Position numbers and translations under genes: made by a program. A stretch of 64,000 nucleotides of DNA from Solanum dulcamara (taxonomy: Eukaryota; Streptophyta; Magnoliopsida; Solanales; Solanaceae), in contig NC_077245.1 in NCBI RefSeq assembly GCF_947179165.1, forward strand, positions 22,481,740 through 22,545,739, read 5' to 3'. This document shows, piece by piece, positions 28,460 through 59,565 of the stretch (within the stretch, counting starts at the first letter, position 1; each line of letters starts with the position of its first letter). Under the pieces are notes generated by a model. The model saw only the letters and a program-made list of their open reading frames with translations. It made no database searches and was not told the DNA's origin.

Positions 28460-29276
28460 TGTCACGACCCTAACCTGTCGTAATTGGCACCCACACTAAC
28501 CCTCCGATTGGAGAACCATTACAACAACCCAACTAAGCACTTAAGAAACTAAGCATTTAAAAAATATGAAAGCAGGCTTAAATGAACGAAATATAAGACT
28601 GAGTTCCCATAAACTCAGAGAAGTACATTAAAACAAACATTGTGGAAAATACTCTCAGGACCTGAAAGTCATCATACCAAAACTTTTAACCAACCAACAA
28701 GTCTAAGATTAGGGGATGCAACCCCATAACAAAAATATGAAAATAGTTTAACAAATAGTCTAAGTTCGAAAAGATGGACTAAGAACTAGGATAAACCCAT
28801 AGTAGCCTAGAAGAGTTGGCTCACCCCCCCTCCCAGTTGCGATCAACAATCACCTATACAAGGTCTGTCAGTAGCCGCTTGAAGATTCCTTATACCCAAC
28901 AATAAAAGAGCAAGTGCAGTATTAGTACACATAACAACGGTGTACCGGTCGGATCACGTGGCTACTTTAGTAAGCAAACTATAATCAGACAACTACAACA
29001 CAGTAAACACACATATACAGAATATATCTTAACTATCATTTCATTTCAATCACATAATAATTATGACCCAATCTAGCAAATATAATAATTACAAAACGGT
29101 CATCGCATGGAACCATATCCAAACTGTTAGTGAGTCAAAATATGACATCCGATCCAATATATGTGTCAAAATGTGACACTCGTTCCAATATGTGTCAAAA
29201 TGTGATACTAGATCTAATATATATGTCGGAATATGACACTCGATCCAATATATGTGTCAAAATATGACACCTGATC
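28460..29276 (-). repeat. 5' LTR of gypsy element, part next to the PBS
   Basis: Starts TGTCACGACCC at 28460 and aligns with 19125-20036 of the other LTR. It ends abruptly at about 29276 inside the minisatellite (29130-29276, about five units), where the LINE begins. The remainder of the LTR is at 41031-41672. Confidence 0.85.
29130..29276. repeat. LTR minisatellite, about five units, cut by the LINE
   Basis: Units of the type TGTCAAAATATGACACxxGA with CCAATATATG, as in the other family-B LTRs. The LINE insertion point is within or at the end of the last unit. One unit supplies the upstream ATG at 29252 that is in frame with LINE ORF1. Confidence 0.8.
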
Positions 29277-29314
29277 CTTATCTCAAAGAAGGGCATTTTA
29301 GTCACAAAAACGAA

Positions 29315-32300
29315 ATGGGGTGGGACCCACCTCCGGACCTCGAAAAATTTCGTTCGAAAGATGGAATCGTAGATTCCGTCGATACGAACACAACGAAAGT
29401 TATCTCACTCTCAGATTCCATCTATAGCTCCTCAAATTTGCAAAAGACTGAAGTGATCACTGTTCATTGTTCGAGTGAGGAGCTGCTGCAAGCTGAAAAA
29501 ATCATATCCTTGAGAAATCGGGGATTGCTAAAGATTATAAACAATATTGGAGATGATTCTTCATCCCATATGCCAAGCACAGTACAAAGTTCACAAAAAA
29601 ATTTAGTCCCAATTGAGAAAAATGCAGAGGCGCATCAGCTCAGCATCGCCGCCAATGCGCCACCACTGCGCCTTCAATTTCCAGCCACCTCCGGCGATAT
29701 TCTAGCCCTCGCACCATCTGGACTTTGTTCGCAAGGACAAGGCGCCCCGATAGGAACAAAAACCTCTGGCGAAATCAACTCCGGCGAACAAATTGTAGTC
29801 GACGCAGGAGCTACGGCAAGCCAAAACGCACAAGATGAATGCCAAAATGTTCCTCAAGCTGTTTTCAATCTCCTCAGTCATGAGAGCCATCTCGAATCAC
29901 TGCCACACTCTTCGAATGTATCCTTGAGCTCTGACAACAATGGAGTCGCCGGAGCTCCGGCCAGCCAATTCAGCCAAGACCAATACCAAAAGGTGAGTAA
30001 CAGTGTGGAGAAGGTTTCTAACTATAACACATGTCTCAAATCTATACAAACAAGTTCAAATTCAAAAAGTCGTCAAGACGACTTTGGTGGTGCCGGAGCT
30101 CCGGCGAACCAATTGGCAAGAGACCAATACCAAAAGACTCATCAAGGAGTCATGAAGCTTCCAAGCTATATAGAGTGTCTCGAATCACCATCAACAAGCT
30201 CAAATTCAAAAAGTCGTCAAGACTTGCATCTCCCTGAAGAACACTGTAACAGTGTTGTTCGAGCTGAAGCTGTGGCTGGTGTATTGGATCATGTTCAAAA
30301 TGACCAACAAGGAAATAGAATGCTAATATTGGAAGGCATTGAAGAAAATGGTCATGCCCCAAAAGAAATTTCGAAGGGGAACTTCACTGATAAGCAATGG
30401 AACAGTGCTCTTGCTGTGGCTCATCCAGGTAAGTCTTCTAACTATTTCAACCAATATCTAGTCAAAAGTGATGACCATATTAACAATGTTGTTCAAATGC
30501 ATAGTGACACTGTCGAACCTCATGAACTTAGCTTGCTTGATAATAATGTACAAAAAGGAAATTTAGCTAATGTTGTTATTGTTAAGCCTACTAATTTGCA
30601 TCTAGCTCTGACCAAGAATAATGAGGAAATTCAGAATGCTACTCACAATGGTGATACTGATCTTGTTGTTAAGCACAAGGAGCAGGGGAACATAATACTT
30701 GGTAATATTGAAAAAAACAAACAACCTGACCAGTTGAACAGGGGGCTCAATGTGAAAACTCAACCTGTCCATAGACCTTATGTTCCTAATAGCAATCCTA
30801 TGAAAGTGTCTAATAATTTTGATGCTATTAAATCTACTAACAAACCTGCTGCTCTGAATACTGGAAGCAACCTAGGTTCCAGAAACTCAAACCAACTTAG
30901 AGCTCCAAGTTTTAATATTCCAACTCCTAATAATCATGTGGTGCTTCCCAATACTAATTTACCTGCAAAACAAACCCAGCACCCCAATACTAATACTCCA
31001 ACCCCTCCTAATCCTGTCATCCACCAAACTCTGGCTACTAAGTTGAGAGCCCAAGAAGCTATGAAAACAGACACTATTGATATTACACCTCCCAAAATTA
31101 CCACAAAGCAAGGCTATCCAGCTGTAGTATTTACAGAAGAAGACTTCCTGGTGAAATTGGCTAGTGATTGTAAGTATACTCTAATAGGAAAATTCACAAA
31201 TACTATGCCTAAGATGGAAACCATTAGAAAGGAATTCATCTTGCAAACAGAACTCAGAGGAGGAGTGAAACTTACCCATTTTAACTCTAGGCATCTGTAC
31301 ATAGACTTGGACAATGAGTATGATCACTCTACTGTTTGGTCCAAAGGAAGAATGTACATAAATGGCCAACTTATGAGACTCCAACTTTGGACCCCCACCT
31401 TCAAGCCTGAAGAAGAAACATCTCTAGTTCCTATATGGGCTATATTACCTGAATTACCTTGGCACTGTTATCGTCTTGCAGTGGTAACTCCATTACTATC
31501 CCCAATTGGAAAGGTGTTGTTCTTGGATTTGGCAACCTACAAGAAAACAAGGGGTAGTGTTGCAAAAGTCAAAGTACAAATTGACCTTACAAAACAAAGA
31601 CCACAACATGTATGGATGGGGTATGGTGAGGATGAAAATGGAGCAGGAAGGTGGCAGTCTATCCAATATGAGGGGGTGCCAGATTACTGTCAACACTGCA
31701 AACATCAAGGTCACACCATTCATGTTTGTACTGTGAAAAGAAGGGATGAAGATAATAAGAAAAAACAAGTTCAAGAAGAAGAAGCAAGAAACAAAGATAA
31801 ATCCAGCAATGAAAAGAACAAGGAACAACAGAACAAGGAGCTAAAACACCAAGAAGACAAACAAAATAAGGAACAACAAAACACTAGCAAAGCTGGAACT
31901 GAAAAAAGAGACCAAGAACATGCAGGTTGGCAAATTCAAAGGAGGAAAGGCAAAAAAGATGGACAACATAACCAACAACAACCACAACAGCATAAAACAC
32001 AAGTATCCATGACAAAAGGGGAAAGTTCAGTACCATCCCAGCATATTATCAGCAGCAGCAAAGAAGGAAAATCTCAACAGCAGGCAGGTATGCTTAATAA
32101 CTCTAACTTTAATACTTGTAATATCCAAACTTGTAATGTAGACTCTGGAGTCCAGAGCCTACTCCCCATTCCCCATACAGTATTGGATCCCAGCCCCCAT
32201 AATCCCATACAGCAGGTATTACATGTTAATGAAGAGAGCAGACCTGCAGACAAACAAAAAGAGCAAAATATTACTGCCAGGTGTGCACCAAATACTGGTT

Positions 32301-33169
32301 TGAATAATGTGGAAAGCAACAAAGCCAATGGAAAAATCCCAGGTATTGACTTAATGCTCCCACAACCCCATGGCTCCCCCAATTACTTTAATATCTTAAA
32401 TAGTATTAATGTTGTGGCTGAAGAAGTCTGTGGAGGTCAGGTTGGAGGAATACAGGAGCAAATCACTAATCTGCAGGAAGGGGAAACCAAGGGGAGGGAA
32501 AATCTATTGGTTGACCATAGGAAAGACCCTAGAGCCCCTGCCACCACTATTCCAGCAGAGATAAGGTCCAACATGCAATTGCAACAAGATGATGGTCAAC
32601 AGCTTTCAGAGGACAGTGATAAGGGAGGTGTTGAATTTCCAAAAAATAGTGAACAAAATACAGGTGCAGTGATTCAGCTACTGAACAATAAATATACTCT
32701 TTCTTTGAGTAAAAAGAAGAGAGAGGCACTGAAGAAAAAGATAGGAAAAAAAAGTAAAAAATCTCTGTCTGAAAAGACACAACACAGAGCAGGGATTTAT
32801 GCTTCACCTCTTCAAATTCAATCCAGCTCTACTGAATTGTATGTGCTTAATAAGAGAGCCATATCAGATGACTTGGAGGATGAATATAGACCTATTCAAT
32901 CTGAAGATGAAGAGGACCTAGATCAAAAGGAACAAACTCATGATGAGGATGAGGAAACTAGTGCCTCTCCCATTAGAGCACTGGATGATATCACAGATTC
33001 TACAACTCAGGATGAAGTGTTGCAAGTCACTGAGAAGCAGGGTTTATCACCCAGGGGTCAGCAAGCAAAGAAGAAGAAGAAAAAACAGAAACAAGACATC
33101 TCCACCAGTTCAGATAATGCTACTTGTAAGAGTGGCATCAACACAAGGTCCAAATCCCTGAAACTTTGA
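29315..33169 (+). CDS. LINE ORF1: nucleic-acid-binding protein (DUF4283-like, CCHC)
   Basis: ORF1 proteins of plant L1 elements bind the element RNA and form the RNP for retrotransposition. I choose the ATG at 29315. The frame is open from an ATG at 29252 in the host LTR, giving 1305 codons, and residue numbers here count from that ATG. Visible parts are a low-complexity N-terminal half with three exact-period 48-residue repeats (29801-30232, AGAPASQ/AGAPANQ type), a DUF4283-like domain at about residues 620-770, and a CCHC knuckle C813-x2-C816-x4-H821-x4-C826. A Lys/Gln/Glu-rich coiled-coil-like stretch (830-900) and a Lys-rich tail (KKKKKKQKQ) that could be a nuclear signal follow. It is about twice the usual length for plant L1 ORF1. 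It ends in TGATG shared with ORF2. Confidence 0.9.
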   Translation: MGWDPPPDLEKFRSKDGIVDSVDTNTTKVISLSDSIYSSSNLQKTEVITVHCSSEELLQAEKIISLRNRGLLKIINNIGDDSSSHMPSTVQSSQKNLVPIEKNAEAHQLSIAANAPPLRLQFPATSGDILALAPSGLCSQGQGAPIGTKTSGEINSGEQIVVDAGATASQNAQDECQNVPQAVFNLLSHESHLESLPHSSNVSLSSDNNGVAGAPASQFSQDQYQKVSNSVEKVSNYNTCLKSIQTSSNSKSRQDDFGGAGAPANQLARDQYQKTHQGVMKLPSYIECLESPSTSSNSKSRQDLHLPEEHCNSVVRAEAVAGVLDHVQNDQQGNRMLILEGIEENGHAPKEISKGNFTDKQWNSALAVAHPGKSSNYFNQYLVKSDDHINNVVQMHSDTVEPHELSLLDNNVQKGNLANVVIVKPTNLHLALTKNNEEIQNATHNGDTDLVVKHKEQGNIILGNIEKNKQPDQLNRGLNVKTQPVHRPYVPNSNPMKVSNNFDAIKSTNKPAALNTGSNLGSRNSNQLRAPSFNIPTPNNHVVLPNTNLPAKQTQHPNTNTPTPPNPVIHQTLATKLRAQEAMKTDTIDITPPKITTKQGYPAVVFTEEDFLVKLASDCKYTLIGKFTNTMPKMETIRKEFILQTELRGGVKLTHFNSRHLYIDLDNEYDHSTVWSKGRMYINGQLMRLQLWTPTFKPEEETSLVPIWAILPELPWHCYRLAVVTPLLSPIGKVLFLDLATYKKTRGSVAKVKVQIDLTKQRPQHVWMGYGEDENGAGRWQSIQYEGVPDYCQHCKHQGHTIHVCTVKRRDEDNKKKQVQEEEARNKDKSSNEKNKEQQNKELKHQEDKQNKEQQNTSKAGTEKRDQEHAGWQIQRRKGKKDGQHNQQQPQQHKTQVSMTKGESSVPSQHIISSSKEGKSQQQAGMLNNSNFNTCNIQTCNVDSGVQSLLPIPHTVLDPSPHNPIQQVLHVNEESRPADKQKEQNITARCAPNTGLNNVESNKANGKIPGIDLMLPQPHGSPNYFNILNSINVVAEEVCGGQVGGIQEQITNLQEGETKGRENLLVDHRKDPRAPATTIPAEIRSNMQLQQDDGQQLSEDSDKGGVEFPKNSEQNTGAVIQLLNNKYTLSLSKKKREALKKKIGKKSKKSLSEKTQHRAGIYASPLQIQSSSTELYVLNKRAISDDLEDEYRPIQSEDEEDLDQKEQTHDEDEETSASPIRALDDITDSTTQDEVLQVTEKQGLSPRGQQAKKKKKKQKQDISTSSDNATCKSGINTRSKSLKL
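29801..30232 (+). repeat. Three 144-bp tandem repeats inside ORF1
   Basis: Units begin at 29801, 29945 and 30089, exactly 144 bp (48 codons) apart. Each starts GxCGGAGCTxCGG or similar and encodes a AGA(P/T)A(S/N)Q...D(Q/E)(Y/C)Q(K/N) pattern. The second and third units are most alike. The period keeps the frame. Confidence 0.85.
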
Positions 33170-36100
33170 TGATGAATACAATATGCTGGAATGCAAGGAG
33201 TATTGATACTCAAAGTGCCTTGGATAGACTCCAAAAACTCAAGGATTATCACAATTTAACTATGCTGGCAATCCTGGAACCATTTGCTAATCAATCACAT
33301 CTTAACCACTACAGAATTCAGCTGAGAATGGACAGTGCCATTCATAATCCCAATAACAAGATTTGGTTGTTTTGGACTAAGGATGTGGACTGCACTATTG
33401 TAGACCAAGATGAACAACAGTGTACTTGTGAAATCAAACATGTGGCTAATCCTAATTCTCATATTATTACATTTGTTTATGCCAAGTGTAAGGATTACCT
33501 GAGAAGAACTCTTTGGGATAAAATGCTGCAGTATGCTGACACAGACAAGCCATGGTGCATTATGGGAGACTTTAATGTGATCACTGATGTTGATGAAAAA
33601 CTAGGAGGACAACCACACAACATGAACAAAAGCTTAGAGTTCATAAGTGTAATTGAGGCATGTGGTCTCACTGATCTGGGATTCCATGGGCAGAAATTTA
33701 CATGGTGCAACAACAGGGACATGGAAGTTAGAATTTGGAAGAGACTGGACAGGGCCATGGTGAATGATAGGTGGTTAGAGATGATGCCCATGACTACTGT
33801 GGCTCATCTTGCTTCAACAGGTTCAGATCACTCCCCCCTATTACTTGAATGTAAGGAGACTCACAGTAATCCTATCAAATACTTCAAGTTCCTCAACTGT
33901 TGGGTGGATAATGAGACTTTCCAGTACACTGTTAGAGTCTGTTGGGAAAGACCAGTAGAGGGTAATCCAATGAGAATATTCCACTTGAAACTTAAGAGGG
34001 TGTCTAACACCCTTAGTAGCTGGTCAAGGCAACAGTATGGGGACATATATGAAGCTGTCAAAGAGTTTGAAGAGAAGGTAAAGCAAGCTGAAGTTGATCT
34101 CATCCAAGACAAGTCTGAGGATAACAAGATCAAGCTGAATCTTGTGAATGCTCAGTACATTAAATACTTAAAGACTGAACAATCCATCCTTAAACAAAAA
34201 ACTAAGCTTCAGTGGTTTAAGGAGGGAGATGCCAATTCCAAGTACTTTCATGCTATTATTAGAGGAAGGAGAAGAAGATTATTCATCCATCAGATTACTG
34301 ATGAACAGGATAATACTATTCAAGGTGATCAGAATATAGCTACTGCTGCATGTGACTACTTTGAGAAGATATTTACTGTTAAGGATGATGCTATCAATGA
34401 AGATATCCTCAGATGTATCCCCAAATCCATCACAGATAATCAAAACCAAGCTCTTAATGCTATGCCAACTAAAGAGGAGCTGAAAGAAGCTGTTTTTTCC
34501 CTCAGTGATGTATCTGCTGCAGGTCCAGATGGTTTTAATGGCAAGTTCTTCCAAACTTGCTGGGATATCATCAGTGAAGACTTATTCAATTTGGTGAAAT
34601 ACTTTTTTTGTGGGCATTCTATTCCCAAGTTCATCTCACATGCTTGTTTGGTTCTACTCCCAAAAGTAGATCATCCTAATAAGTTATCAGATTTCAGGCC
34701 TATATCACTAAGTAACTTCACCAATAAAGTTATTTCAAAGATCCTATGTCTCAGACTTGCTCCTATTCTTCCTCAACTGATCTCTGAAAATCAGTCAGGT
34801 TTTGTTAAGGGAAGAAGTATAGCTGAAAACATAATGTTGGCACAGGAAATCACTCATAGCATTAAAAAACCAAAGATGGGAGATAATGTTGTGATCAAAT
34901 TAGACATGGCCAAAGCCTATGACAGGGTGTCCTGGTCATTTATATGTCTAGTCATGAGAAGGTTTGGATTTGGAGAAGGATTTATTGACATGGTTTGGAG
35001 ACTTATGGCTAATAACTGGTATTCAGTTATTGTGAATGGAGGTAGGCATGGTTTCTTCCACTCTACAAGAGGCCTCAAACAGGGAGATCCATTATCCCCA
35101 GCCCTATTTATTTTAGGTGCTGAGGTACTATCAAGAATGCTCAATAATCTTCATCAACACCATTTGTACAAAGGTTTCCACATGGAGAAGAAAGGTCCAT
35201 TGATTAATCATTTGAGCTTTGCTGATGATATAATCATTTTCACTTCAACATGTAGTAACTCTCTCAAGCTGATCATGAAGACACTGGAAGTGTATGAACA
35301 GACTTCAGGCCAGCTTATTAACACACAAAAGAGTCAGTGCATGATCCCTCTGAATACTGATCCTGAGATCACTGAAAGGGTCACTTCTACCACTGGTTTC
35401 AAAACAACTCATGGCCCTATTACCTACTTGGGTTGCCCCTTATATATTGGAGGTCAAAGGATCATATACTTTACTAGTATGGTGTCCAAAGTAACATCCA
35501 GAATTAGAGGATGGCATACCAAAATTCTCAGTTATGGGGGGAGAGCTGCTCTTGTGAAGTATGTGTTGCAGTCCCTCCCAATTCATCTCTTATCTGCTGT
35601 GATTCCAACTGCCACTACACTCAAACAAATAAAGTCCCTAATAGCAATTTTTTTTTGGGGATGGGACAAAGAAAAAAGAAAATACCATTGGGCATCATGG
35701 GAGACCCTCAGCTACCCAACAGATGAAGGAGGTGTTGGCATGAAAAATCTGAAAGATGTCTGCCTAGCAATGCAATATAAACAATGGTGGAATTTTAGGT
35801 CTAAGAAGACTCTATGGGGGAGCTTTCTGAGGGCCAAGTATTGCCAAAGGGCAAATCCAGTAATCAAGAAATGGGACACTGGTCAATCAATTATGTGGAA
35901 ACACATGATGACAAACAAAGCTGAGATTGAGCCTCATATACAGTGGCACCTTAACTCAGGCTCTTGCAGCTTTTGGTGGGATGATTGGTTAGGAATTGGC
36001 CCCCTAGCTTATCACAAAGACTGTCTACCTAGACTTAACAATACCACTGTCTCCAAGTTCCTGAAGAATGGAGAATGGGATGAAGAGAAGGTGAGGCAAC

Positions 36101-37329
36101 ATGCACCACAGCATCTGATACAGAAGATTCTAAATGTTTCCTTCAAGTACCAACCTGACCTCCCAGATACAGCCTACTGGAAGCTGAATTCAGATGGAAA
36201 CTTTACATGTGCTTCAGCTTGGAACCAAATCAGGCCTAAAAGGAACAAAACCATGACAGACAATAATATATGGCACAAGAATATACCCTTCAAAATATCC
36301 TTTCTTATCTGGAGAGCTCTCAGAAGCAAGTTGCCCACCAATGAAAATATTGAGCACTTTGGTCATGCAGCTGCTCAGTGTTCTTGTTGCTACAGGCCAG
36401 GATGGGATACTATAGATCACATTTTTATCTCTGGACACATGGCTAGTCACATATGGAAGTATTTTTCTGACTGTTGGGGTATACAACACAGCAGCAACCC
36501 AATGAGGAGCAATATGATGAAATGGTGGCTGGCTAAACCAAATAATGAAGTCCATAAACTATTATTGCAAGCTACTCCTATATTTATTTGTTGGAACTTA
36601 TGGAAGAACAGGTGTGCTAGTAAATATGGTGGCAAAAAGTCTAGCAGTACTAGAGTGAAATTCTCAGTCATCAAAGAACTCTACATGCTGATCTTCACAG
36701 ATTTCCCTTACATTAGTTGGCCAAATGACTGGAAGGAGCTAATAGCTATGGTGGAAAGATGCAGCCATGAAATGAAAATCATCCAAGTCAGTTGGCACAA
36801 ACCAGCATACCATGTGGTTAAACTGAATACTGATGGAAGTGCCTTGGATAATCCTGGAAGAATTGGAGCTGGGGGTATCCTAAGAGATCATAAAGGAAAC
36901 ATCCTTTATGCATTTGCTGCACCACTTGGAATTGGTTCTAACAACCAAGCTGAGGTACAAGCTGCAGTCATAGGCATTACTTGGTGTATTCAACATGGCT
37001 ACAGCAGGGTTCTACTGGAGGTTGATTCTGAATTACTTGTGAAATGGTTAAAACAAGAGATCACATCTCCCTGGAACATCAGGAAATACATCACAAACCT
37101 GCAGGAGATGATCATAATGCTGGATCTCTTTCAATGTAAGCACATCTATAGGGAGGCTAATTTTGTTGCTGATACACTCTCCAAGCATAGCCACAGTGTA
37201 GATAGCATGGCTCAATTCTACAGTGTTCAACAGCTTCCTAAGGAAACAAGAGGATATTACATCCTAGACAAGATGGGGATGCCAAATTTTAGGAGGACAA
37301 AACTGAAGAGGATCAAACAACCTCCTTGA
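33169..37329 (+). CDS. LINE ORF2: endonuclease, reverse transcriptase and RNase H
   Basis: ORF2 nicks target DNA and reverse-transcribes the element RNA in the nucleus (target-primed reverse transcription). The ATG overlaps the ORF1 stop (TGATG). The frame is about 1386 codons, without breaks. An APE-type endonuclease is seen at the N-terminus: N9 (CWNARS), E38, D135/N137 (GDFNV) and D221-H222 (SDHSP), counting from the codon at 33166. RT follows at about 490-760, with KLDMAKAYDRVSW, GLKQGDPLSPALF and the FADD box (D687, D688). A zf-RVT-like region lies at about 1003-1110. An RNase H domain at about 1215-1345 has D1223 (LNTDGSA), NNQAEVQA, LEVDSEL and REANFVADTLS. Plant L1 elements with a C-terminal RNase H are known. 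All catalytic residues I can check are present. Confidence 0.95.
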   Translation: MMNTICWNARSIDTQSALDRLQKLKDYHNLTMLAILEPFANQSHLNHYRIQLRMDSAIHNPNNKIWLFWTKDVDCTIVDQDEQQCTCEIKHVANPNSHIITFVYAKCKDYLRRTLWDKMLQYADTDKPWCIMGDFNVITDVDEKLGGQPHNMNKSLEFISVIEACGLTDLGFHGQKFTWCNNRDMEVRIWKRLDRAMVNDRWLEMMPMTTVAHLASTGSDHSPLLLECKETHSNPIKYFKFLNCWVDNETFQYTVRVCWERPVEGNPMRIFHLKLKRVSNTLSSWSRQQYGDIYEAVKEFEEKVKQAEVDLIQDKSEDNKIKLNLVNAQYIKYLKTEQSILKQKTKLQWFKEGDANSKYFHAIIRGRRRRLFIHQITDEQDNTIQGDQNIATAACDYFEKIFTVKDDAINEDILRCIPKSITDNQNQALNAMPTKEELKEAVFSLSDVSAAGPDGFNGKFFQTCWDIISEDLFNLVKYFFCGHSIPKFISHACLVLLPKVDHPNKLSDFRPISLSNFTNKVISKILCLRLAPILPQLISENQSGFVKGRSIAENIMLAQEITHSIKKPKMGDNVVIKLDMAKAYDRVSWSFICLVMRRFGFGEGFIDMVWRLMANNWYSVIVNGGRHGFFHSTRGLKQGDPLSPALFILGAEVLSRMLNNLHQHHLYKGFHMEKKGPLINHLSFADDIIIFTSTCSNSLKLIMKTLEVYEQTSGQLINTQKSQCMIPLNTDPEITERVTSTTGFKTTHGPITYLGCPLYIGGQRIIYFTSMVSKVTSRIRGWHTKILSYGGRAALVKYVLQSLPIHLLSAVIPTATTLKQIKSLIAIFFWGWDKEKRKYHWASWETLSYPTDEGGVGMKNLKDVCLAMQYKQWWNFRSKKTLWGSFLRAKYCQRANPVIKKWDTGQSIMWKHMMTNKAEIEPHIQWHLNSGSCSFWWDDWLGIGPLAYHKDCLPRLNNTTVSKFLKNGEWDEEKVRQHAPQHLIQKILNVSFKYQPDLPDTAYWKLNSDGNFTCASAWNQIRPKRNKTMTDNNIWHKNIPFKISFLIWRALRSKLPTNENIEHFGHAAAQCSCCYRPGWDTIDHIFISGHMASHIWKYFSDCWGIQHSSNPMRSNMMKWWLAKPNNEVHKLLLQATPIFICWNLWKNRCASKYGGKKSSSTRVKFSVIKELYMLIFTDFPYISWPNDWKELIAMVERCSHEMKIIQVSWHKPAYHVVKLNTDGSALDNPGRIGAGGILRDHKGNILYAFAAPLGIGSNNQAEVQAAVIGITWCIQHGYSRVLLEVDSELLVKWLKQEITSPWNIRKYITNLQEMIIMLDLFQCKHIYREANFVADTLSKHSHSVDSMAQFYSVQQLPKETRGYYILDKMGMPNFRRTKLKRIKQPP

Positions 37330-40300
37330 TTTGCATACCAATAATAGTAGTACAGAACTCCCTATGTATAAATTCATAGGTAGGAGTTTTGTAAAGGGGA
37401 CAATCTCCCTTACTTATTGCATTCCTAGAGCAATCAACCTACCCCTAGAGGTAAGGATTAGAATAGATAGCTTCTTTTTTCTTTTCATTCTTGCTTGTGT
37501 AGGTATCAGTAGATTTGGAAAATGGGAACCAACAATTGCAAGCCAGGCAAGGAAAGCTGTAGTGATGCAGCACAGGAACCAGCAATGGGAATCAGCAATC
37601 AGGAACCAACTACAAGTAATTAGAATATTGCAGAATTGCTTGTATGTGTGTTTTTCTGTTGGTGGGTGCAGGTACCATAGGGAGCTGGTTCTGAGTACAA
37701 CTAAGGGTCCTCTCTTGGGAGAAGCCTGCAACAACATGCAATTTAACCTCATTTACTATGGAAGTCACATGGAGCTACAAAAGAGTCTCCAGCAGCCTGT
37801 ACACCTATCCTTCTTGTTTGGCTTCTTGTCACTTGTCTTTACAGGTTCAAAGTATCTCAACAAAAGAGAAGCAACAACCTGGCATGCTAGGACTTCACCA
37901 AATATTCAGCCTCTCACTAATGCTAACACCTTCCCTGCAACACCTGTAACTGAGATTCAGCAGGGTAAGATGTGCAGGGTGAGTTGCAGCAGGTGGACTT
38001 GTTCAATGCCCCCCAAACTTTGCAGGATGTTAGAATATATTATTTTGACAAGCCCCAAGAAGTTTCAGCCCAAACGGATAATTGGAGGCGTTAGGCGAGC
38101 GACATGGAAACATTCAGCTGCCTTAGGCCTAAAGAGAGGGTCTTTAGTAATTTGGACCCTCCAACTTGGGAAACAAGTCTTCAAACTTTTCAGGACTAAA
38201 GGAGAGGATACATATGCTAAATCCATAAAGTTTCAACCCAAATGGACAATTGGAGACGTTAGTCGAGCGACTTGGAAAATGATAACACTCTCCAAAGCTC
38301 TTACTGAGGTCCCTTCTTTATTGCTAGTCTGTGTACATTATTTTTTGTTTGGGCTTGTTTGTTGTATTATTGCAGGTGTCTGGAGTAATATATTAGCATT
38401 CTTCAACAACAAATACATAGACAAGAGCACAAAAACAACTTCCAAACACCCTGCAACCTCTAAGCTTCAGCAGGGCAGCAGGTGCAGGGTGTGGAGTAGC
38501 ATGTGGACTTGTCCAATGCCCCCCAAACTTTGCAGGAAGTTAGAATATATTATTTTGACAAGCCCCAAGAAGTTTCAGCCCAAACGGATAAATGGAGGCG
38601 TTAGGCGAGCGACATGGAAACATTCAGCTGCCTTAAGCCTAAAGAGAGGGTCTTTAGTAATTTGGACCCTCCAACTTGGGAAACAAGTCTTCAAACTTTG
38701 CAGGACTAAAGGAGAGGATATACATGCTAACTCCATAAAGTTTCAATTCAAATGGATAATTGGAGACGTTAGTCGAGCGGCTTGGAAAATGATAACACTC
38801 TCCAAAGCTCTTACTGAGGTCCCCTCTCTATTGATAGTCTGTGTATATTATGTTTTGTTTGGGCTTGTTTGTTGTATTATTGCAGGTGTCTGGAGCAATA
38901 TATTAGCATTCTTCAACAACAAATACATAGACAAGAGCACAACAACATCTTCCAAACCCCCTGCAACCTCTAAGCCTCAGCAGGGCAGTAGGTGCAGGGT
39001 AGGGAGTAACTTGTGGACTTGTCCAAAGTCTCCCAAACTTTGCAGGATGGTAGCATATATATTTTTGATAAGGCCCAAGAAATTTCAGCCAAAACGGATA
39101 ATTTTAGACGTTAGGCGAGCGAGCTTGAAACAATCAGCTGTCTTAAGCTTAAAAAGGAAGAAATTTGCTAAATGGAAGCTCCAACTTGGGAATCAAGCCT
39201 TCAAACTTTGCAAGGCTAAAGTAAAGAATATATATGCAAACCTCATGAAATTTCAGCTCAAACGGATAAGTGGAGACGTTAGTCGAGCGACATGGAAAAT
39301 GCTAACAGGCTCCAAAATCCTATTTGAGATCCATTCCTCTCTACTAACCTGTATATGTCTATGCTTGTCTTTGGTTACTTGCTGTGTATTTGCAGGTTGT
39401 TGGAGACTTACACCAACATGCTTTAACATCAAAATCATAGAGGACAACATCTGCAGCAGCTCAACACCTGCAGCAGCCCAACACCTGCAACACCTGCAGC
39501 AGCTCAACACTTGTTTGCTTTGTTGCTTGTCTTTGGTTGACTTTCTTTGCTTAGAACCTATTTGGCACTGCTATGAGGGCTGCAGTAACCTTGGGCTTAT
39601 ATGGAGTAGCACACTCAGCTGGCCAACCACACTCTCTATTATCAACACACCCCAGCACCAACCTGCAGCAGACAAGGAACAAATCCAATCCACCTATGCC
39701 TTCTCTAATAACTCTAATAACACAACACTTGCAGCAGCTCCTTTCTTGCTGGTTCTTGTTTGTGGTGTAGATGCAGATGTCAGGATGAACTCATCAACAT
39801 GTGTTTCCAACACCTACATAGAGCACAGCACAGATACAACCACCAAAACAAATACCTTCACTAAGAGGCCTACACAAGGACTATGCAGAGCAGCAACTTC
39901 CTTCTGGATTTTGTGGTTGTTTGGTTGCTTGTATTTGGCTGTTTGTCTTGTTGGTTGTGTTTGTCTATGCAGGTACCTCAGCTTCACCCCCCTCCAGGAG
40001 AATGCATTGATCTCCATGACCAGTCATTCTCAGCTTCACCAATGCAGCTGGCAGACTGCTAAAAGGACTGCAGTATCTTGGGGCTGCTTTGGAGCAGCAC
40101 CCTCAGCTTGCCAAACACATTCTCCACTACTAACACACTCCAGCAACAACTCCATCAACCTGCAGCAGACAAGAAACATATACAAGTTTGTTGGTTTTGT
40201 TATTTTGTGCAGGTGCTCCAAGAGGCCTAACCACCTCAAAACAAAGACCAACAAGCAGCCTAGGGAACCTGCAGCCACCTGCAGATTGGCAGCCTTGGAT

Positions 40301-40495
40301 GCATTCCATCAACAGCTGCAACAGCTCCACCAACTTGCAGCAGCCAAGGAACAAATACAAGCTAATGCTACAGCAGCTTGCACACCTCTTTGGTTGAATG
40401 TATTGTTGGTCTTGTTTGGCTGTGCAGGTACAGGTCTGCAGCAACCATACATTTGGACCACCATGCAGCTACTTCCTTCCTTTCAACCTCCATAG
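37307..40495 (+). CDS. LINE third open frame (ORF3), repetitive, hydrophobic segments, unknown function
   Basis: A frame, +1 relative to ORF2, opens at 37307 (23 nt before the ORF2 stop) and stays open to 40495, more than 1050 codons. The other two plus frames are interrupted repeatedly. The first ATG is at 37364. The product would be basic, with W/C-rich repeats: three 170-residue units (about 37940-39470), each with two FQPK-x-x-IGxV-x-RATWK-type half repeats and one strongly hydrophobic segment ending CCIIAGVW or CCVFAGCW. Other hydrophobic segments lie near 37472, 37640, 37806, 39902, 40187 and 40388. The last third is Q/A/T-rich, from CAG/CTGCAG repeats. I recognise no family. It could be a real ORF3, a captured sequence, or an intron-like 3' UTR whose open frame has another cause. 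Confidence 0.5.
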   Translation, partial: RGSNNLLDLHTNNSSTELPMYKFIGRSFVKGTISLTYCIPRAINLPLEVRIRIDSFFFLFILACVGISRFGKWEPTIASQARKAVVMQHRNQQWESAIRNQLQVIRILQNCLYVCFSVGGCRYHRELVLSTTKGPLLGEACNNMQFNLIYYGSHMELQKSLQQPVHLSFLFGFLSLVFTGSKYLNKREATTWHARTSPNIQPLTNANTFPATPVTEIQQGKMCRVSCSRWTCSMPPKLCRMLEYIILTSPKKFQPKRIIGGVRRATWKHSAALGLKRGSLVIWTLQLGKQVFKLFRTKGEDTYAKSIKFQPKWTIGDVSRATWKMITLSKALTEVPSLLLVCVHYFLFGLVCCIIAGVWSNILAFFNNKYIDKSTKTTSKHPATSKLQQGSRCRVWSSMWTCPMPPKLCRKLEYIILTSPKKFQPKRINGGVRRATWKHSAALSLKRGSLVIWTLQLGKQVFKLCRTKGEDIHANSIKFQFKWIIGDVSRAAWKMITLSKALTEVPSLLIVCVYYVLFGLVCCIIAGVWSNILAFFNNKYIDKSTTTSSKPPATSKPQQGSRCRVGSNLWTCPKSPKLCRMVAYIFLIRPKKFQPKRIILDVRRASLKQSAVLSLKRKKFAKWKLQLGNQAFKLCKAKVKNIYANLMKFQLKRISGDVSRATWKMLTGSKILFEIHSSLLTCICLCLSLVTCCVFAGCWRLTPTCFNIKIIEDNICSSSTPAAAQHLQHLQQLNTCLLCCLSLVDFLCLEPIWHCYEGCSNLGLIWSSTLSWPTTLSIINTPQHQPAADKEQIQSTYAFSNNSNNTTLAAAPFLLVLVCGVDADVRMNSSTCVSNTYIEHSTDTTTKTNTFTKRPTQGLCRAATSFWILWLFGCLYLAVCLVGCVCLCRYLSFTPLQENALISMTSHSQLHQCSWQTAKRTAVSWGCFGAAPSACQTHSPLLTHSSNNSINLQQTRNIYKFVGFVILCRCSKRPNHLKTKTNKQPREPAATCRLAALDAFHQQLQQLHQLAAAKEQIQANATAACTPLWLNVLLVLFGCAGTGLQQPYIWTTMQLLPSFQPP
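37940..39470 (+). repeat. Three tandem 510-bp units in LINE ORF3
   Basis: Matching landmarks recur 510 bp apart: TTGCAGG at 38372, 38882 and 39392, and the GCGTTAGGCGAGCGACATGG block at about 38086, 38596 and 39106. The first two units are nearly identical and the third is diverged. The period is a multiple of three, so the frame is kept. Each unit contains two half repeats of about 50 bp (for example near 38059 and 38228). Confidence 0.9.
39451..39512 (+). repeat. CTGCAGCAGCTCAACAC minisatellite
   Basis: About four imperfect copies of a 15-18-bp unit (CTGCAGCAGCxCAACAC). Similar CTGCAGCAGACAAG words recur at 39665, 40160 and 40337, which marks this part as made of repeated modules. Confidence 0.7.
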
Positions 40496-40984
40496 CTGGT
40501 AATCATGATGCTGATACAAAGGCACACTTCACCTGGATTTACTTGGTACGACAAGACTAAAAGGAGCAAAGATGAAAGGAATTTCCCATCCCATGCGAGA
40601 TAGAAGTTTCGTATGCTTGTTCTTCTTCAATGTAGCTATGTCTGGTACGTAGCATAGTTGAATAGGACTAGTGTAGGTTACTTTTCTTTTTTCTCATGGA
40701 AGGGGAGAGTCTCCCTCATTTATGCTTTCATAGTTGAATTGTACCGGGAGGAGTCCTCTCACAGGTTTAATGCTTTCTAGTTATAGTTAGTTTCTTTTTT
40801 GTATCGGGGATGAGTTAGCCGACCTTAATAGGTTAGCCGACTTATGAACCACCATAGGATCGGAGGTAAGGTTTATGTCCCCCTCCTTGTATTTTTATTT
40901 TGATTATTTATGTTAAGGCTTGGGGGTGTTGCTTAACCCCTGACTGTGCACGAGAGGTGGGAGCCTCGTGTAGGGTCTGTTCCC

Positions 40985-41030
<46 letters not shown>
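40496..41030 (+). other. LINE 3' UTR and poly-A tail
   Basis: Non-coding end of the LINE. It closes with a G/T-rich segment (around TTAAGGCTTGGGGGTGTTGC), a short inverted repeat (GAGGTGGGAGCCTC), CCCGT, and then 44 A residues (40987-41030). The tail has no interruption, which is unusual for an old insertion. Confidence 0.85.
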
Positions 41031-45948: not shown

Positions 45949-47447
45949 TTACATTTCTGTTAGGCCAATAGAAGATCGACACCGTATAAACTTGTTACTG
46001 TTGATTGGCTTTGTAAACATATCTGCTAGGTTGTCATTAGTGTGAATTTTCTGAATATCCACACTGCCTTCTTCCACTTTCTCACGAACAAAGTGATACT
46101 GAACTCCTATGTGTTTTGTCCTTGAATGAAATGTCGGATTCTTTGCAAGATGCAAAGCACTTTGACTCTCACAAAACAGAGCAACCTTCTCTTGTTTGTG
46201 CCCGAGCTCCTCAAATAACATTTGCAACCATATTGCTTCTTTGCTAGCTTGTGTAGCTGCTATATATTCTACTTCCATCGTAGATGTAGCCACGATAGAT
46301 TGCAGTTTTGAAATGCAGCTTACAGCTCCTCCAGCAAGAGTAAACACATAACTTGTGGTGGACTTGCTTTTATCAAGATCACCTGCATAATCTGAATCAA
46401 CATAACCTTTAACAGTAAAGTTTGATCCTCCATAACACATTGCAACATCTGAGGTACCCTTGATGTATCTCAGGATCCTCTTAACAGTATTCCAATGCTC
46501 TCTACCAGGATTATCCATGTATCGACTAACCACTCCCACTGCTTGTGCAATGTCGGGTCTTGTACATACTATGACGAAAATTAAACTTCCCACTTCTGAT
46601 GCATATGATACTCGAGATATATCCATCCTCTCTGCTTCATTGCTAGGACTCATACTTGAGTATAACTTGAAATTAATAGGAAGTGGGGTAGAAATTGACT
46701 TACAATCTCGGATCTTGAAGCGTCTCAAAATTTTCTTCAAGTAATTCTTTTGAGAAAGCCAAATCTTTCTATTATTTCTGTCTCGGTGAATTTGCATCCC
46801 TAGAATCTTGTTTACTAGTCCCAAGTTCTTCATTTCAAACTCCCTAGCCAACTGTGCCTTTAAATTTGTAAGACGATCTTTGTTGGGGCCTGCTACCAAC
46901 ACGTCGTCAACATACAACAGCAAAATAACAAAATCTTCATCATCAAATCTCTTGTAATAAACACAAAGATCTGAACTATGTTTGTTGTATCCAAGGCTTA
47001 TAATGAAGGAATCAAATCTCTTATACCAACACCTGGCGCCTGTTTGAGACCATATAGAGATTTGTTCAACCTGCAAACCAAGTTCTCTTTTCCCTGTTCT
47101 TCAAAACCTTCTGGTTGGAGCATGTAAATTTCTTTCTCAAGTTCTCCAAGAAGAAATATAGTTTTGACATCTAACTACTCCAAGTACAAGTCAAATGTAG
47201 CACACATCGCCAGGACCACTTGAATTGTTGTGAGTCAAACCACCGGAGAAAATATCTCATTGAAGTCTATACCTTCTTTCTGAGCGAATCCTTTCACCAC
47301 CAATCTTGCACGATACTTCTCCACTTGATCATTACCATTGCGTTTGATCTTGTAGACCCATTTGTTTCCAATGGCCTTCCTTCCTTGTGATAATCGAACA
47401 AGATCCCATGTTTTATTTTTATGAAGAGCTTCAATGTTTTCTTGCAT
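45949..47447 (-). pseudogene. copia reverse transcriptase and RNase H, frameshifted
   Basis: 47447-47235 is the RT N-terminus (NKWVYKIKRNGNDQVEKYRA, then LVVKGFAQKEGIDFNEIFSP). After a broken stretch, 47076-45949 reads openly through the active-site box LLYVDDVLVAG and the Tnt1-like connection to RNase H. RNase H has YVDSDYAGDLDKSKSTTSYV and STMEVEYIAATQASKEAIWL. Where copia elements normally have CDSQSA the protein reads CESQSA, so a catalytic Asp appears changed to Glu. The end (DIQKIHTNDNLADMFTKP) is intact. Confidence 0.88.
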
Positions 47448-48418: not shown

Positions 48419-49525
48419 CTAATATTTCCTTGCTTTAGTAGAGGAACTGCTAAACTTCAGTCTATTTTGCTTACTGGTAACACAATATTCACAAAAGGGT
48501 AGTGAAACCTTTTTGAGCCTTAGAAGAAACTTTTGCTCAGCAAGAATCTTCAAACCTCGTTCTGACATATGGCCAAGTTTATGATGCCACATCATTGTTG
48601 ATTCTTCAAATAAACTTGCTGATGTGGTTGATGTTTCTCCTTCTTGGTGTGTTTCACCTTTAAGCACATATAGATTTGCAGCAAGTTTTTCTGCTTTCAT
48701 AACTACAAGCGCTCCTTTGGATATTTTCATGACTCCACCTTGAGTCTTATATGAACATCCATTATCATCTTGTTGTCCTAAAGACAATAGATTCTTCTTC
48801 AAGTCTTTTACATGTCGTACCTCTTGGATGGTGCGTACCGTGCTATCATATATCTTTATTTTGATAGATCCAATACCAATAACATTCAAAGCATGATCGT
48901 TTCCCATAAATACAGATCCTTCTGAGATAGGATTATATTGATGGAACCATTCTCTCCGAAAAGTCATGGTCCATGTTGCTCTTGTGTCCATGATCCAAAC
49001 ATCAACGAAATATTTTCTTCCTTCATTATTTGATGTTGCCTCACTACATAAAATATCGCCATCATCCGAGGTACATGCAACATTCCTTTGAGCATTTGAT
49101 GGCTCAGGGTGTTCACTTTTCTTTTTGAACCGACAATCTTTCTTGAAGTGCCCTTTCTTGCCATAGTTGTAGCACTTGATATTCTTCTTACTTCTTGATT
49201 GAGATCTACCATGATTGTGACTCCCACTGGGGCCACGTTCCGTTGGTCTTCCTCTCACCATTATCAAAGCTTCAGCTTGCTGCGAACTTGCTTGTCTGTC
49301 TTCCTTATTTTTGCGCTGATTTTCTTCTTCCAAAACAGCGGCTGCAATTTCATCGAAAACTAGACTGTCTATATTGTTCGTCAGGTTGATGATAAGTTGA
49401 TCATACGAGTCAGGCAGACTTTGAAGTAGAAGTTCCGCACGTTCAGTCTCCTCTATTTTGCAACCCATTGTTGTAAGTTGCGAAAATAGAGTATTCAAAG
49501 TATTGATGTGTTCAATAACCGACAT
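48419..49525 (-). pseudogene. copia gag C-terminus, zinc knuckle, protease and pre-integrase domain
   Basis: A 368-codon open stretch. It contains gag (SLPDSYDQLIINLTNNI), a knuckle CYNYGKKGHFKKDC in which the second Cys is Tyr, and the protease active-site region MDTRATW, where D-T-G has become D-T-R. The GAG-pre-integrase zinc domain follows (MMWHHKLGHMSERGLKIL, then CEYCVTSKQ). Two active motifs carry substitutions that should disable them. Confidence 0.88.
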
Positions 49526-49530
49526 GGACT

Positions 49531-49863
49531 CTACATTCGAAGAGTATACAATCTTCTTTTTAAGAAAATTTTATTATTCAAAGACTTGGCCTCATATAAC
49601 CCTGTAAGAGTATTCCATATTTCCTTCGCCGGCCATTTTTCAGCCACACTAGACAATACTTGATCAGCTAGTGCCAAGTGTAGATCAGCAACTGCGTTGC
49701 TGTCTATGTCATTCCACTTGCTGTCATCAGTAAAATTTATGGGTCTGCCTTCAATTGCAGCTAAGCAATTGTCCTTTCTCAATATTGCATTTATTTTCAT
49801 TTTTGACAATGAGAAATTAGTCCCATTGAATTTTTCAACATCAAACTTTATTGTACTCGACAT
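49531..49863 (-). pseudogene. copia gag N-terminus
   Basis: Starts MSSTIKFDVEKFNGTNFSL, the typical Tnt1/Tork gag beginning, and continues with AVADLHLALADQVLSSVAEK and NTLTGLYEAKSLNNKIFLKR. It ends at a stop near 49531, and the gag sequence continues in another frame at 49525. The start ATG is at 49863-49861, about 195 bp downstream of the 5' LTR. Confidence 0.88.
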
Positions 49864-58510: not shown

Positions 58511-58581
58511 ACCCCCAAGTTCCTGTTTCTGTTCGTACAATCACAACATTTCCCTAAACTAATTAATTTTTTTAACCAAAC

Positions 58582-59565
58582 ATGTCCTCAAGATATCAAA
58601 ACCCTAATAATGGGAACAGAAACTTTCAGCGTTACTGGTGTTATCAATGCCATCTCATCGTCAGGGTGTCACCGTCGGAGATCGTCTGTCCCCGTTGTTT
58701 CGGTCACTTCCTTTGCGAAATCAACGAGGCTAACCCTAGACAAATCTTGGACTTCACTGCATTTGATCCTTCTCCAGAAGCTAGAATTTTTGAAGCTCTA
58801 ACTCTCATGCTCGATCCTAATTTGTTCAACAACTCTCAAGGCAATGTGGTCCCTATTTTCCGACGTTCGGACGGAACTGAAACTGTCGAACCACCACCCG
58901 ATTCTCTCAGGACTACAGGTAGACATCAGAGGACTCGAGACTTCTGGTTTAGACCGAGAAGGAGATACTCATTTCTAAACAACGACACGGATGAATGGAC
59001 ACCGGAGAGCGGAATTCTAGCTCGTCCGCGTTCATGGATTATCATCCGACCATCCGGAGAACATTTTCTGGGTGGACCTAACCGCCTACTTGCAGGAGAA
59101 AGACAATTAGGTCCACCCGAAGATTATTTTACAGGTCCGGGGCTTGAAAACCTAATAGAAGAGTTGACTCAAAATGATCGGCCGGGTCCTGCACCAACAC
59201 CCGAGTCGATCATTGGTTCTATTCCGACGGTGGTGATTGCGCCAGCACATTTAAGAGATGATTCGGAATGTCCGGTTTGTAAGGAAAAGTTTAAAGTAGG
59301 TGGAGCAGCAAAAGAGTTGCCATGTAAACATATATATCATTCAGATTGCATTGTCCCTTGGTTAAGGCTTCATAATTCTTGCCCGGTTTGCCGGAATCCA
59401 TTACCGGTTTCTGCCGAAGCTCCGATGGATACTTCCGATGATTGTCTTGAAGAACAAGAAGCAAGCAATAGACAGCGGCGTTGCTTCAGACTTAGACAAA
59501 TGGCAGCTTCTCTTTGGCCATTTCGTTCGAGGTATCGTCCTGTGCGTAACCATGGTGAGATCTAG
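58582..59565 (+). CDS. RING-H2 E3 ubiquitin-protein ligase with N-terminal zinc ribbon (RHC1A/RING1-like)
   Basis: A 327-residue protein encoded in one exon. E3 ligases of this type bring a ubiquitin-charged E2 to the substrate. The N-terminus has a zinc ribbon C20-x2-C23...C36-x2-C39 (YWCYQCHLIVRV, then CPRC). The RING-H2 domain is complete: C230-x2-C233-x14-C248-x-H250-x2-H253-x2-C256-x10-C267-x2-C270, with the E2-contact Trp in IVPWL. The middle is low-complexity and Arg/Pro-rich. The C-terminus SLWPFRSRYRP resembles RHC1A-type ligases. The zinc ribbon plus RING-H2 layout and single exon are usual for that plant family. The ATG at 58582 is the first in frame and sits 75 bp after a TATA box. 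There is no signal peptide or membrane segment, so it is likely soluble. Substrate and exact orthology are unknown. Confidence 0.93.
   Translation: MSSRYQNPNNGNRNFQRYWCYQCHLIVRVSPSEIVCPRCFGHFLCEINEANPRQILDFTAFDPSPEARIFEALTLMLDPNLFNNSQGNVVPIFRRSDGTETVEPPPDSLRTTGRHQRTRDFWFRPRRRYSFLNNDTDEWTPESGILARPRSWIIIRPSGEHFLGGPNRLLAGERQLGPPEDYFTGPGLENLIEELTQNDRPGPAPTPESIIGSIPTVVIAPAHLRDDSECPVCKEKFKVGGAAKELPCKHIYHSDCIVPWLRLHNSCPVCRNPLPVSAEAPMDTSDDCLEEQEASNRQRRCFRLRQMAASLWPFRSRYRPVRNHGEI

Follow-up and report, generated by a model that had tools for sequence, protein, structure and literature searches.

A third long open reading frame, free of stops yet drifting in sequence, in a LINE of Solanum dulcamara

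Celine, a long interspersed nuclear element (LINE) of the L1 clade from poplar, measures 6,114 bp and has two open reading frames (ORFs), a 1,617-bp ORF1 with DUF4283 and an ORF2 with endonuclease and reverse transcriptase (RT), together with a 189-bp 3′ untranslated region (UTR), poly(A) and target-site duplications (PMC11288735). Extra coding sequence has been described in other retroelements, in bdelloid long terminal repeat (LTR) retrotransposons (PMC5408684) and, as a helicase domain, in insect R1 LINEs (PMC4686597); Jockey elements are described as having a modular, reticulate ORF1, whose modules are exchanged between lineages (PMC4120745). The LINE described here lies in the window, a 64,000-nucleotide stretch of Solanum dulcamara chromosome 9 (22481740-22545739). 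It resembles Celine in its DUF4283 ORF1, its ORF2 with RT and an endonuclease-like region, its poly(A) and the target-site duplications of some copies, but is about 11.75 kb long and has a third frame of 3.2 kb, ORF3. The bdelloid and R1 additions are described as shared or recognisable proteins, whereas no relatives of ORF3 were found beyond these LINEs and its amino-acid sequence is not conserved. Exchange of modules is common to Jockey ORF1 and ORF3, but here it concerns the 3′ end of the element, and those joints that were read lie at T-rich AG-GT tracts. Our literature search, within the portions of papers that it covered, showed no third ORF in any plant LINE.

ORF3 is a real and unusual third ORF, new among plant L1 LINEs, and is most likely kept open for translation. 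Our preferred explanation, held tentatively and at somewhat short of an even chance, is that it is a genuine third cistron of a LINE clade, kept open by selection so that the 3′ region is translated, whatever the product. A shade less confidently, we propose that the frame is selected to stay open as a translated spacer of freely swapped modules that shields an over-long RNA.

From its first ATG, 35 nt past the ORF2 stop, ORF3 runs from 37364 to 40495 on the forward strand. The surrounding stop-to-stop frame (37307-40495) has 1062 codons and overlaps by 23 nt the end of ORF2, whose stop codon finishes at 37329; stops in the five remaining frames number 63, 54, 45, 25 and 76. The original prediction had reported just such a single frame of more than 1050 codons, with that start, and had put its probability by chance at about 1e-22. 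Recomputed with a composition model the figure is about 1e-24, or about 3e-18 once 280 codons are removed for repeats, and the longest frame across 2000 first-order simulations was 249 codons. The repeats are tandem units U1 (37949-38458) and U2 (38459-38968), of 510 nt each, and a diverged, shorter U3 (38969-39441), all on the forward strand; their starts are spaced by exactly 510 nt, a multiple of three, U3 has diverged from U1 and U2 at about 26-28% of sites, and each unit has an internal 56-nt repeat at offsets 168 and 342 nt. The prediction had also held that the third unit and the non-repeated parts are open; this stands for U3 and the non-repeated start (37307-37948), which like U1 are improbably open, and less well for 39437-39988 (P 0.009 for frame 0) and the last 504 nt (P 0.07), where chance could explain the openness. 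The period-3 signal, at 32 for ORF1 and 19 for ORF2, drops to a weak 5.1 for ORF3 and is missing from the last kilobase of ORF3 (0.78). Chance as the origin of the whole frame was set aside on the composition model, the simulations and the part-by-part openness; a known non-coding satellite, which the prediction had raised against itself, was also rejected, the repeat being three 510-nt units in frame within a LINE and not long arrays.

The LINE family of the window's ORF3 is young. With ORF3 as query, a search of all six frames of the genome gave 57 match rows, the best 44 of 3421 candidates being scored. Among the rows listed, 24 cover ORF3 residues 1-1043, and 22 of those are stop-free; ten, the window's own included, have the top score in common; and the 1062-codon frame is present in 20, of which 19 are stop-free. 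For diverged lineages the query was P0001, a S. dulcamara gene model related to ORF3 (best 68 of 3732 candidates scored), and at least 207 matches were found, with frames of up to 1354 codons among those listed. Seven loci were fetched, L041-L046 being chosen mainly for long open frames. These six have ORF2 tails 54-64% identical to the window's and ORF3 frames of 1125 (L041), 1157 (L042), 1141 (L043), 978 (L044), 661 (L045) and 896 (L046) codons; L047 is decayed, and in L045 ORF2 is decayed too, with 4 stops over 674 codons. The distance from the ORF2 stop to the first ORF3 ATG is 35 nt in the window, 42 nt in L041, L043 and L044 and 47 nt in L046. Among the matches listed, the same full-length frame recurs within each young group, 1157 codons in 7 rows, 1141 in 5 loci and 1125 in 3 (one with a stop), and so many copies with one full-length frame per group argue that the source copies are open. 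At L048 (702-4766) the ORF3 frame is longer still, with 1354 codons, and has an FQPP end like that of the window.

No fixed stop was found in ORF3 in any of eight lineage pairs, where 4.2-14.4 per pair are expected from random changes; for three pairs with disjoint members the summed expectation is 24.7. Single dead copies, by contrast, do acquire stops and frameshifts: 1 stop was counted with 52 changes in L049, 2 with 55 in L050 and 0 with 43 in L051, and decayed L047 had 1 with 19, with gaps of 16 and 1 nt. Twenty variant young copies (L021-L040) had 2 stops in 66 singleton changes, versus 2.9 under neutrality, and none in 27 changes common to at least two copies, versus 1.2 expected. The same set, with flank rows of the 5′-truncated L031, L032, L034, L035, L036 and L039 dropped, has 11 indels inside ORF3. 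All six that lie 5′ of 39990 are multiples of three (12, 9, 108, 6, 12 and 3 nt), as is one of the five beyond it (153 nt); the others (43, 31, 2 and 67 nt) fall where little of the frame remains. ORF2 figures from L027, L028 and L037, also 5′-truncated, were not used. Gap runs in comparisons with the window are multiples of three in 13 of 16 cases. An ORF3 riddled with stops beside intact ORF1 and ORF2 was not seen among the copies listed or fetched, which are a selected set.

The amino-acid sequence behaves differently in ORF3 and ORF2. Codon models were fitted to 15 lineage pairs (two ORF2 fits saturated). The ratio of nonsynonymous to synonymous divergence (dN/dS, omega) for ORF3 was 0.74-1.53 in all 15, at dS of 0.08-0.25, and for ORF2 it was 0.05-0.36 in the 13 converged fits, where dS was often above 2. 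In the same-age pair L041-L044, ORF2 has dS 0.14 and omega 0.29 (103 codons), and ORF3 has dS 0.15 and dN 0.20. Differences between the window and L041 at the three codon positions number 91, 81 and 82 in ORF3 versus 67, 55 and 149 in ORF2, which shows third-position skew. Judged by hydropathy and BLOSUM score, the substitutions in ORF3 are no milder than random changes in seven of seven pairs; the ORF2 control, valid for window-L041 only (L045-L046 being invalid), shows clear constraint on both. Ratios in 60-codon windows of ORF3 range from 0.52 to 1.29. Among the window's own repeat units dN/dS is 1.58, 0.90 and 0.76, the same as in wrong frames and too coarse to be used alone. Overall, amino-acid change in ORF3 is near-neutral, with scatter. 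A conserved new protein, as one reading of the original prediction would have it, is not supported: dN/dS, for which that prediction had named values near 1 as refuting, is near 1 in these 15 pairs (a further young pair gave 0.5), and the chemistry of the changes is no different from random. A frame that stays stop-free while its residues drift points to translation itself, more than the resulting protein, as the thing that counts.

ORF3 has a mosaic structure, its modules having been exchanged among lineages, and lineages resemble one another much more in ORF3 than in ORF2. Between the window and L041, identity is 91% in ORF3 (1494 nt) and 97% in the 3′ UTR (175 nt) but 68% in ORF2; L044 and L045 are 92-94% identical in two main ORF3 stretches, with ORF2 tails about 59% identical over 48 codons; in L041 and L044 it is the ORF2 tails that are close (92%) and the ORF3s that differ (81% over 2015 nt). 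Such discordance between ORF3 and ORF2 indicates that 3′ parts move between lineages, as would be expected of template switching from the 3′ end. In the cases read, module joints lie at T-rich AG-GT tracts; one example continues from L044 1466-1509 (window 37629-37672) to window 38481. An FQPP end is common to the window and L043 ORF3s, and otherwise no C-terminus is common across the printed lineages. The repeat at 39567-39688 (forward strand) has a second copy, 76% identical, at 40055-40185 (forward strand) in another codon phase, which argues that amino-acid repeats are not what is kept there.

The start of ORF3 (37385-37450, forward strand) appears to be a second copy of 3′ UTR sequence, the similarity, found by MAFFT and eye, being partial. 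Its first codons are GGGGACAATCTCCC in the window, with a 3′ UTR counterpart GGGGAGAGTCTCCC near 40700, and GGGAGAGTCTCCC in L043, L044 and L046, which likewise resemble the 3′ UTR near 40700. This resemblance suggests that ORF3 began in a duplicated 3′ UTR. The 3′ UTR proper (40496-40986, forward strand, by similarity to L041 and L044) is 97% identical to that of L041 (175 nt) and 92.5% to that of L044 (427 nt), the main ORF3 stretch being 91% and 83% identical, respectively.

From these comparisons, a course of events may be proposed. ORF3 would have arisen within the 3′ UTR and grown by tandem duplication and module swapping, the latter probably through template switching in target-primed reverse transcription, which begins at the 3′ end. 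Ribosomes that end ORF2 would re-start at the ATG 35-47 nt downstream, and a comparable re-start is probable at the TGATG overlap of ORF1 and ORF2. They would then sweep the RNA to within about 0.5-0.7 kb of the poly(A), clearing UPF1 and any exon-junction complexes, and an RNA with a 3.7-kb stretch after ORF2 would thereby be spared nonsense-mediated decay (NMD). A stop in ORF3 would re-create the long 3′ UTR and cost the copy its mobility, and an amino-acid change would cost nothing. The Rous sarcoma virus pyrimidine-rich stability element shields a long 3′ UTR from NMD. ORF3 is like it in proposed purpose and in having pyrimidine-rich sequence after a stop codon, but the shield here would be translation of the open frame. 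In plants two features trigger NMD, a 3′ UTR exceeding 300-350 nt and an intron lying more than 50-55 nt past the stop (PMC4417159), so that the region after ORF2 would trigger it by length if untranslated and by introns if spliced.

Several observations weigh against selection for translation of ORF3. The distance from the ORF3 end to the poly(A) is 491 nt in the window and, by homology, about 490 nt in L044, 653 in L046, 689 in L041 and 851 in decayed L045; the remaining 3′ UTR of about 490-690 nt is still over the plant NMD length. The ORF1 and ORF2 stops are far from the poly(A) in any case, so the model needs efficient re-initiation. The absence of fixed stops is partly built in by the choice of open copies, and the strength of that test is overstated because lineages were picked for openness. 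Stops occur in 2 of the 57 rows listed in the ORF3 search and in at least 21 of the matches listed for P0001. Frame-preserving indels, a check that the original prediction had proposed, hold for the young copies 5′ of 39990 and less well between lineages: in the six other pairs with gaps, 16 of 33 runs are multiples of three (4 of 10 for L041-L046, 6 of 16 for L041-L044). In young copies, nonsynonymous relative to synonymous changes stand at 0.79 of the neutral level when read in the true frame, versus 1.01 and 1.36 in wrong frames, a weak hint of constraint. Finally, ten further codon-model fits include the young pair L042-L048 at omega 0.5 (95% 0.3-0.8), which also hints at constraint, and L044-L049 at 2.2 (1.3 to the top of the grid).

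The low ratios of L042-L048 and of the young copies are part of the case that ORF3 makes a functional protein, for example one associated with membranes or ribonucleoprotein (RNP), under constraint so loose that sequence hardly matters. The long frame and the similar ATG position in five lineages agree with this, as do nine hydrophobic stretches listed in ORF3 and five gene models that match it, but we consider it unlikely. Overall omega is about 1, repeats are read in two phases, and no C-terminus is common across the printed lineages, even though the window and L043 both end in FQPP. Hydropathy is unconstrained: seven hydrophobic segments (the first of the nine stretches left out, two adjacent ones merged) keep it no better than chance against five lineages. 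These segments also coincide largely with the T-rich (C/T)AG-GT tracts, and a membrane role, one of those suggested for ORF3, therefore finds no support. AlphaFold gives one unit (3 sequences) a mean predicted local distance difference test (pLDDT) score of 42, above 70 only in the hydrophobic helix region.

Searches bear out the earlier statement that the product resembles nothing known. The proposed profile search found no Pfam domain above cut-off in the translation, Rfam gave no family in the ORF3 region (a single row, E 0.3, is below the gathering score), and a known protein domain or RNA family was accordingly set aside; no relatives of ORF3 or ORF2 were found in viral contigs. In a database of 5.8 billion protein sequences (three queries, two with the best 7999 candidates scored), ORF3 matched five entries, all S. 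dulcamara gene models (LOC129890728, LOC129875815, LOC129893019, LOC129883562 and LOC129896228), which are pieces of the LINE family, some joining ORF2 to ORF3. A captured host sequence, offered by the original prediction as one origin, is unlikely, since only these models match among the candidates scored and the first codons resemble the 3′ UTR.

Ten T-rich sites ending in (C/T)AG-GT lie within 37470-40437 on the forward strand, with the GT at 37503, 37672, 37845, 38376, 38886, 39396, 39973, 40213, 40428 and 40434 (the last two in one common tract), where 0.14 are expected from 500 first-order shuffles. They occupy two codon phases. Such sites number 7-13 in ORF3 of each of five other lineages, 1 in the 8 kb of ORF1 and ORF2, 5 in the other 52 kb of the forward strand and 14 on the entire reverse strand of the window. 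They may be real 3′ splice sites, with ORF3 and part of ORF2 joined in spliced RNAs and stops avoided since retained introns must be readable. Two gene models point this way: in P0001 a piece of the ORF2 endonuclease is joined to ORF3 sequence from the site at 38886 (by protein alignment), and P0004, read by eye, seems to skip such tracts too. P0003 and P0004 are ORF2 models that continue into ORF3-like sequence. These models are predictions, however, which may have RNA reads behind them or prediction alone, and conservation of the tracts scarcely exceeds that of the adjoining sequence in four of five lineages, L046 excepted. That recent deletions follow splice junctions was rejected, as seven of the seven young deletions looked at are not GT..AG. 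We regard a splice-site array as doubtful, and marginally less probable than a functional protein.

Less probable again is the absence of any selection, with a frame open by origin and by our choice of open copies. The lineages were indeed chosen for long frames, the last kilobase is without a period-3 signal and its last 504 nt may be open by chance; young singleton stops are near neutral (2 in 66 versus 2.9), but differences between lineages include none, and young groups with many full-length copies (1062 codons in 20 rows, 19 stop-free) point to open sources. Diversifying selection on the ORF3 protein against host factors, averaging to an omega near 1, fits the 2.2 of L044-L049 and the fast change that module swapping brings, but is very improbable given 60-codon ratios of 0.52-1.29 and a chance-level change chemistry that looks neutral, not like a mix.

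The LINE as a whole spans about 29278 to 41030 on the forward strand, its start placed from the 5′ flanks of other copies and its end by the poly(A) tail (40987-41030, forward strand). Of the 12 5′ flanks fetched, seven include the start of the element, the remaining five having no match in the fetched piece; six of the seven begin with (A)nTCCTCTCAAACCCTAGTAATCATTATCTCAAAG and L019 slightly later, at AATCATTATCTC. About 28 nt found at the 5′ end of other copies are missing from the window copy. Poly(A) was found in eight of eight copies, the window copy counted, and target-site duplications were read by eye in L001/L009 and L007/L015; one was looked for around the window copy and not found.

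ORF1 (29315-33169, forward strand) has 1284 codons from the first in-element ATG and a DUF4283 match (Pfam 1.8e-28). Counted from 29249 (29249-33169) it looks unusually long beside the 1,617-bp ORF1 of Celine, with DUF4283 at residues 654-776 of 1306, and in-frame 144-nt repeats were seen inside it at 29789-30136. Its stop is overlapped by the ATG of ORF2 (TGATG). ORF2 (33169-37329, forward strand, in the stop-to-stop frame 33130-37329) matches RVT_1 (9e-35), zf-RVT (1e-21) and RVT_3, for RNase H (5e-23); its endonuclease-like N-terminus matches Exo_endo_phos at E 0.0019 and 18.4 bits, below the Pfam cut-off of 24.5. On these domains and DUF4283 we file the element as a putative plant L1-clade LINE. 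In place of the two ORFs and short 3′ UTR of that clade it has a third frame of 1062 codons and 3.7 kb after ORF2, and is thus a variant of the plant L1 LINE.

Elsewhere in the window, two 383-codon frames on the reverse strand (45949-47100 and 48419-49570) are equal in length and not duplicates; one matches copia RVT_2 and the other gag and pre-integrase domains, and they are probably parts of one copia element. A frame at 58576-59565 (forward strand) with a RING-type zinc finger and an N-terminal zinc ribbon is apparently an ordinary host gene, and 62076-62594 (forward strand) holds a MULE transposase domain.

An open frame ordinarily counts as a sign that a protein is under selection, and here a frame on the kilobase scale looks selected without a selected product. 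The element is young and in many copies, so that stop gain and loss can be traced within one genome. If selection for translation through the 3′ region is the true explanation, translation as RNA protection would become testable and the tolerance of this LINE for a very long 3′ end would be explained. It would also be a warning against annotating such frames as genes, as five S. dulcamara models already match ORF3.

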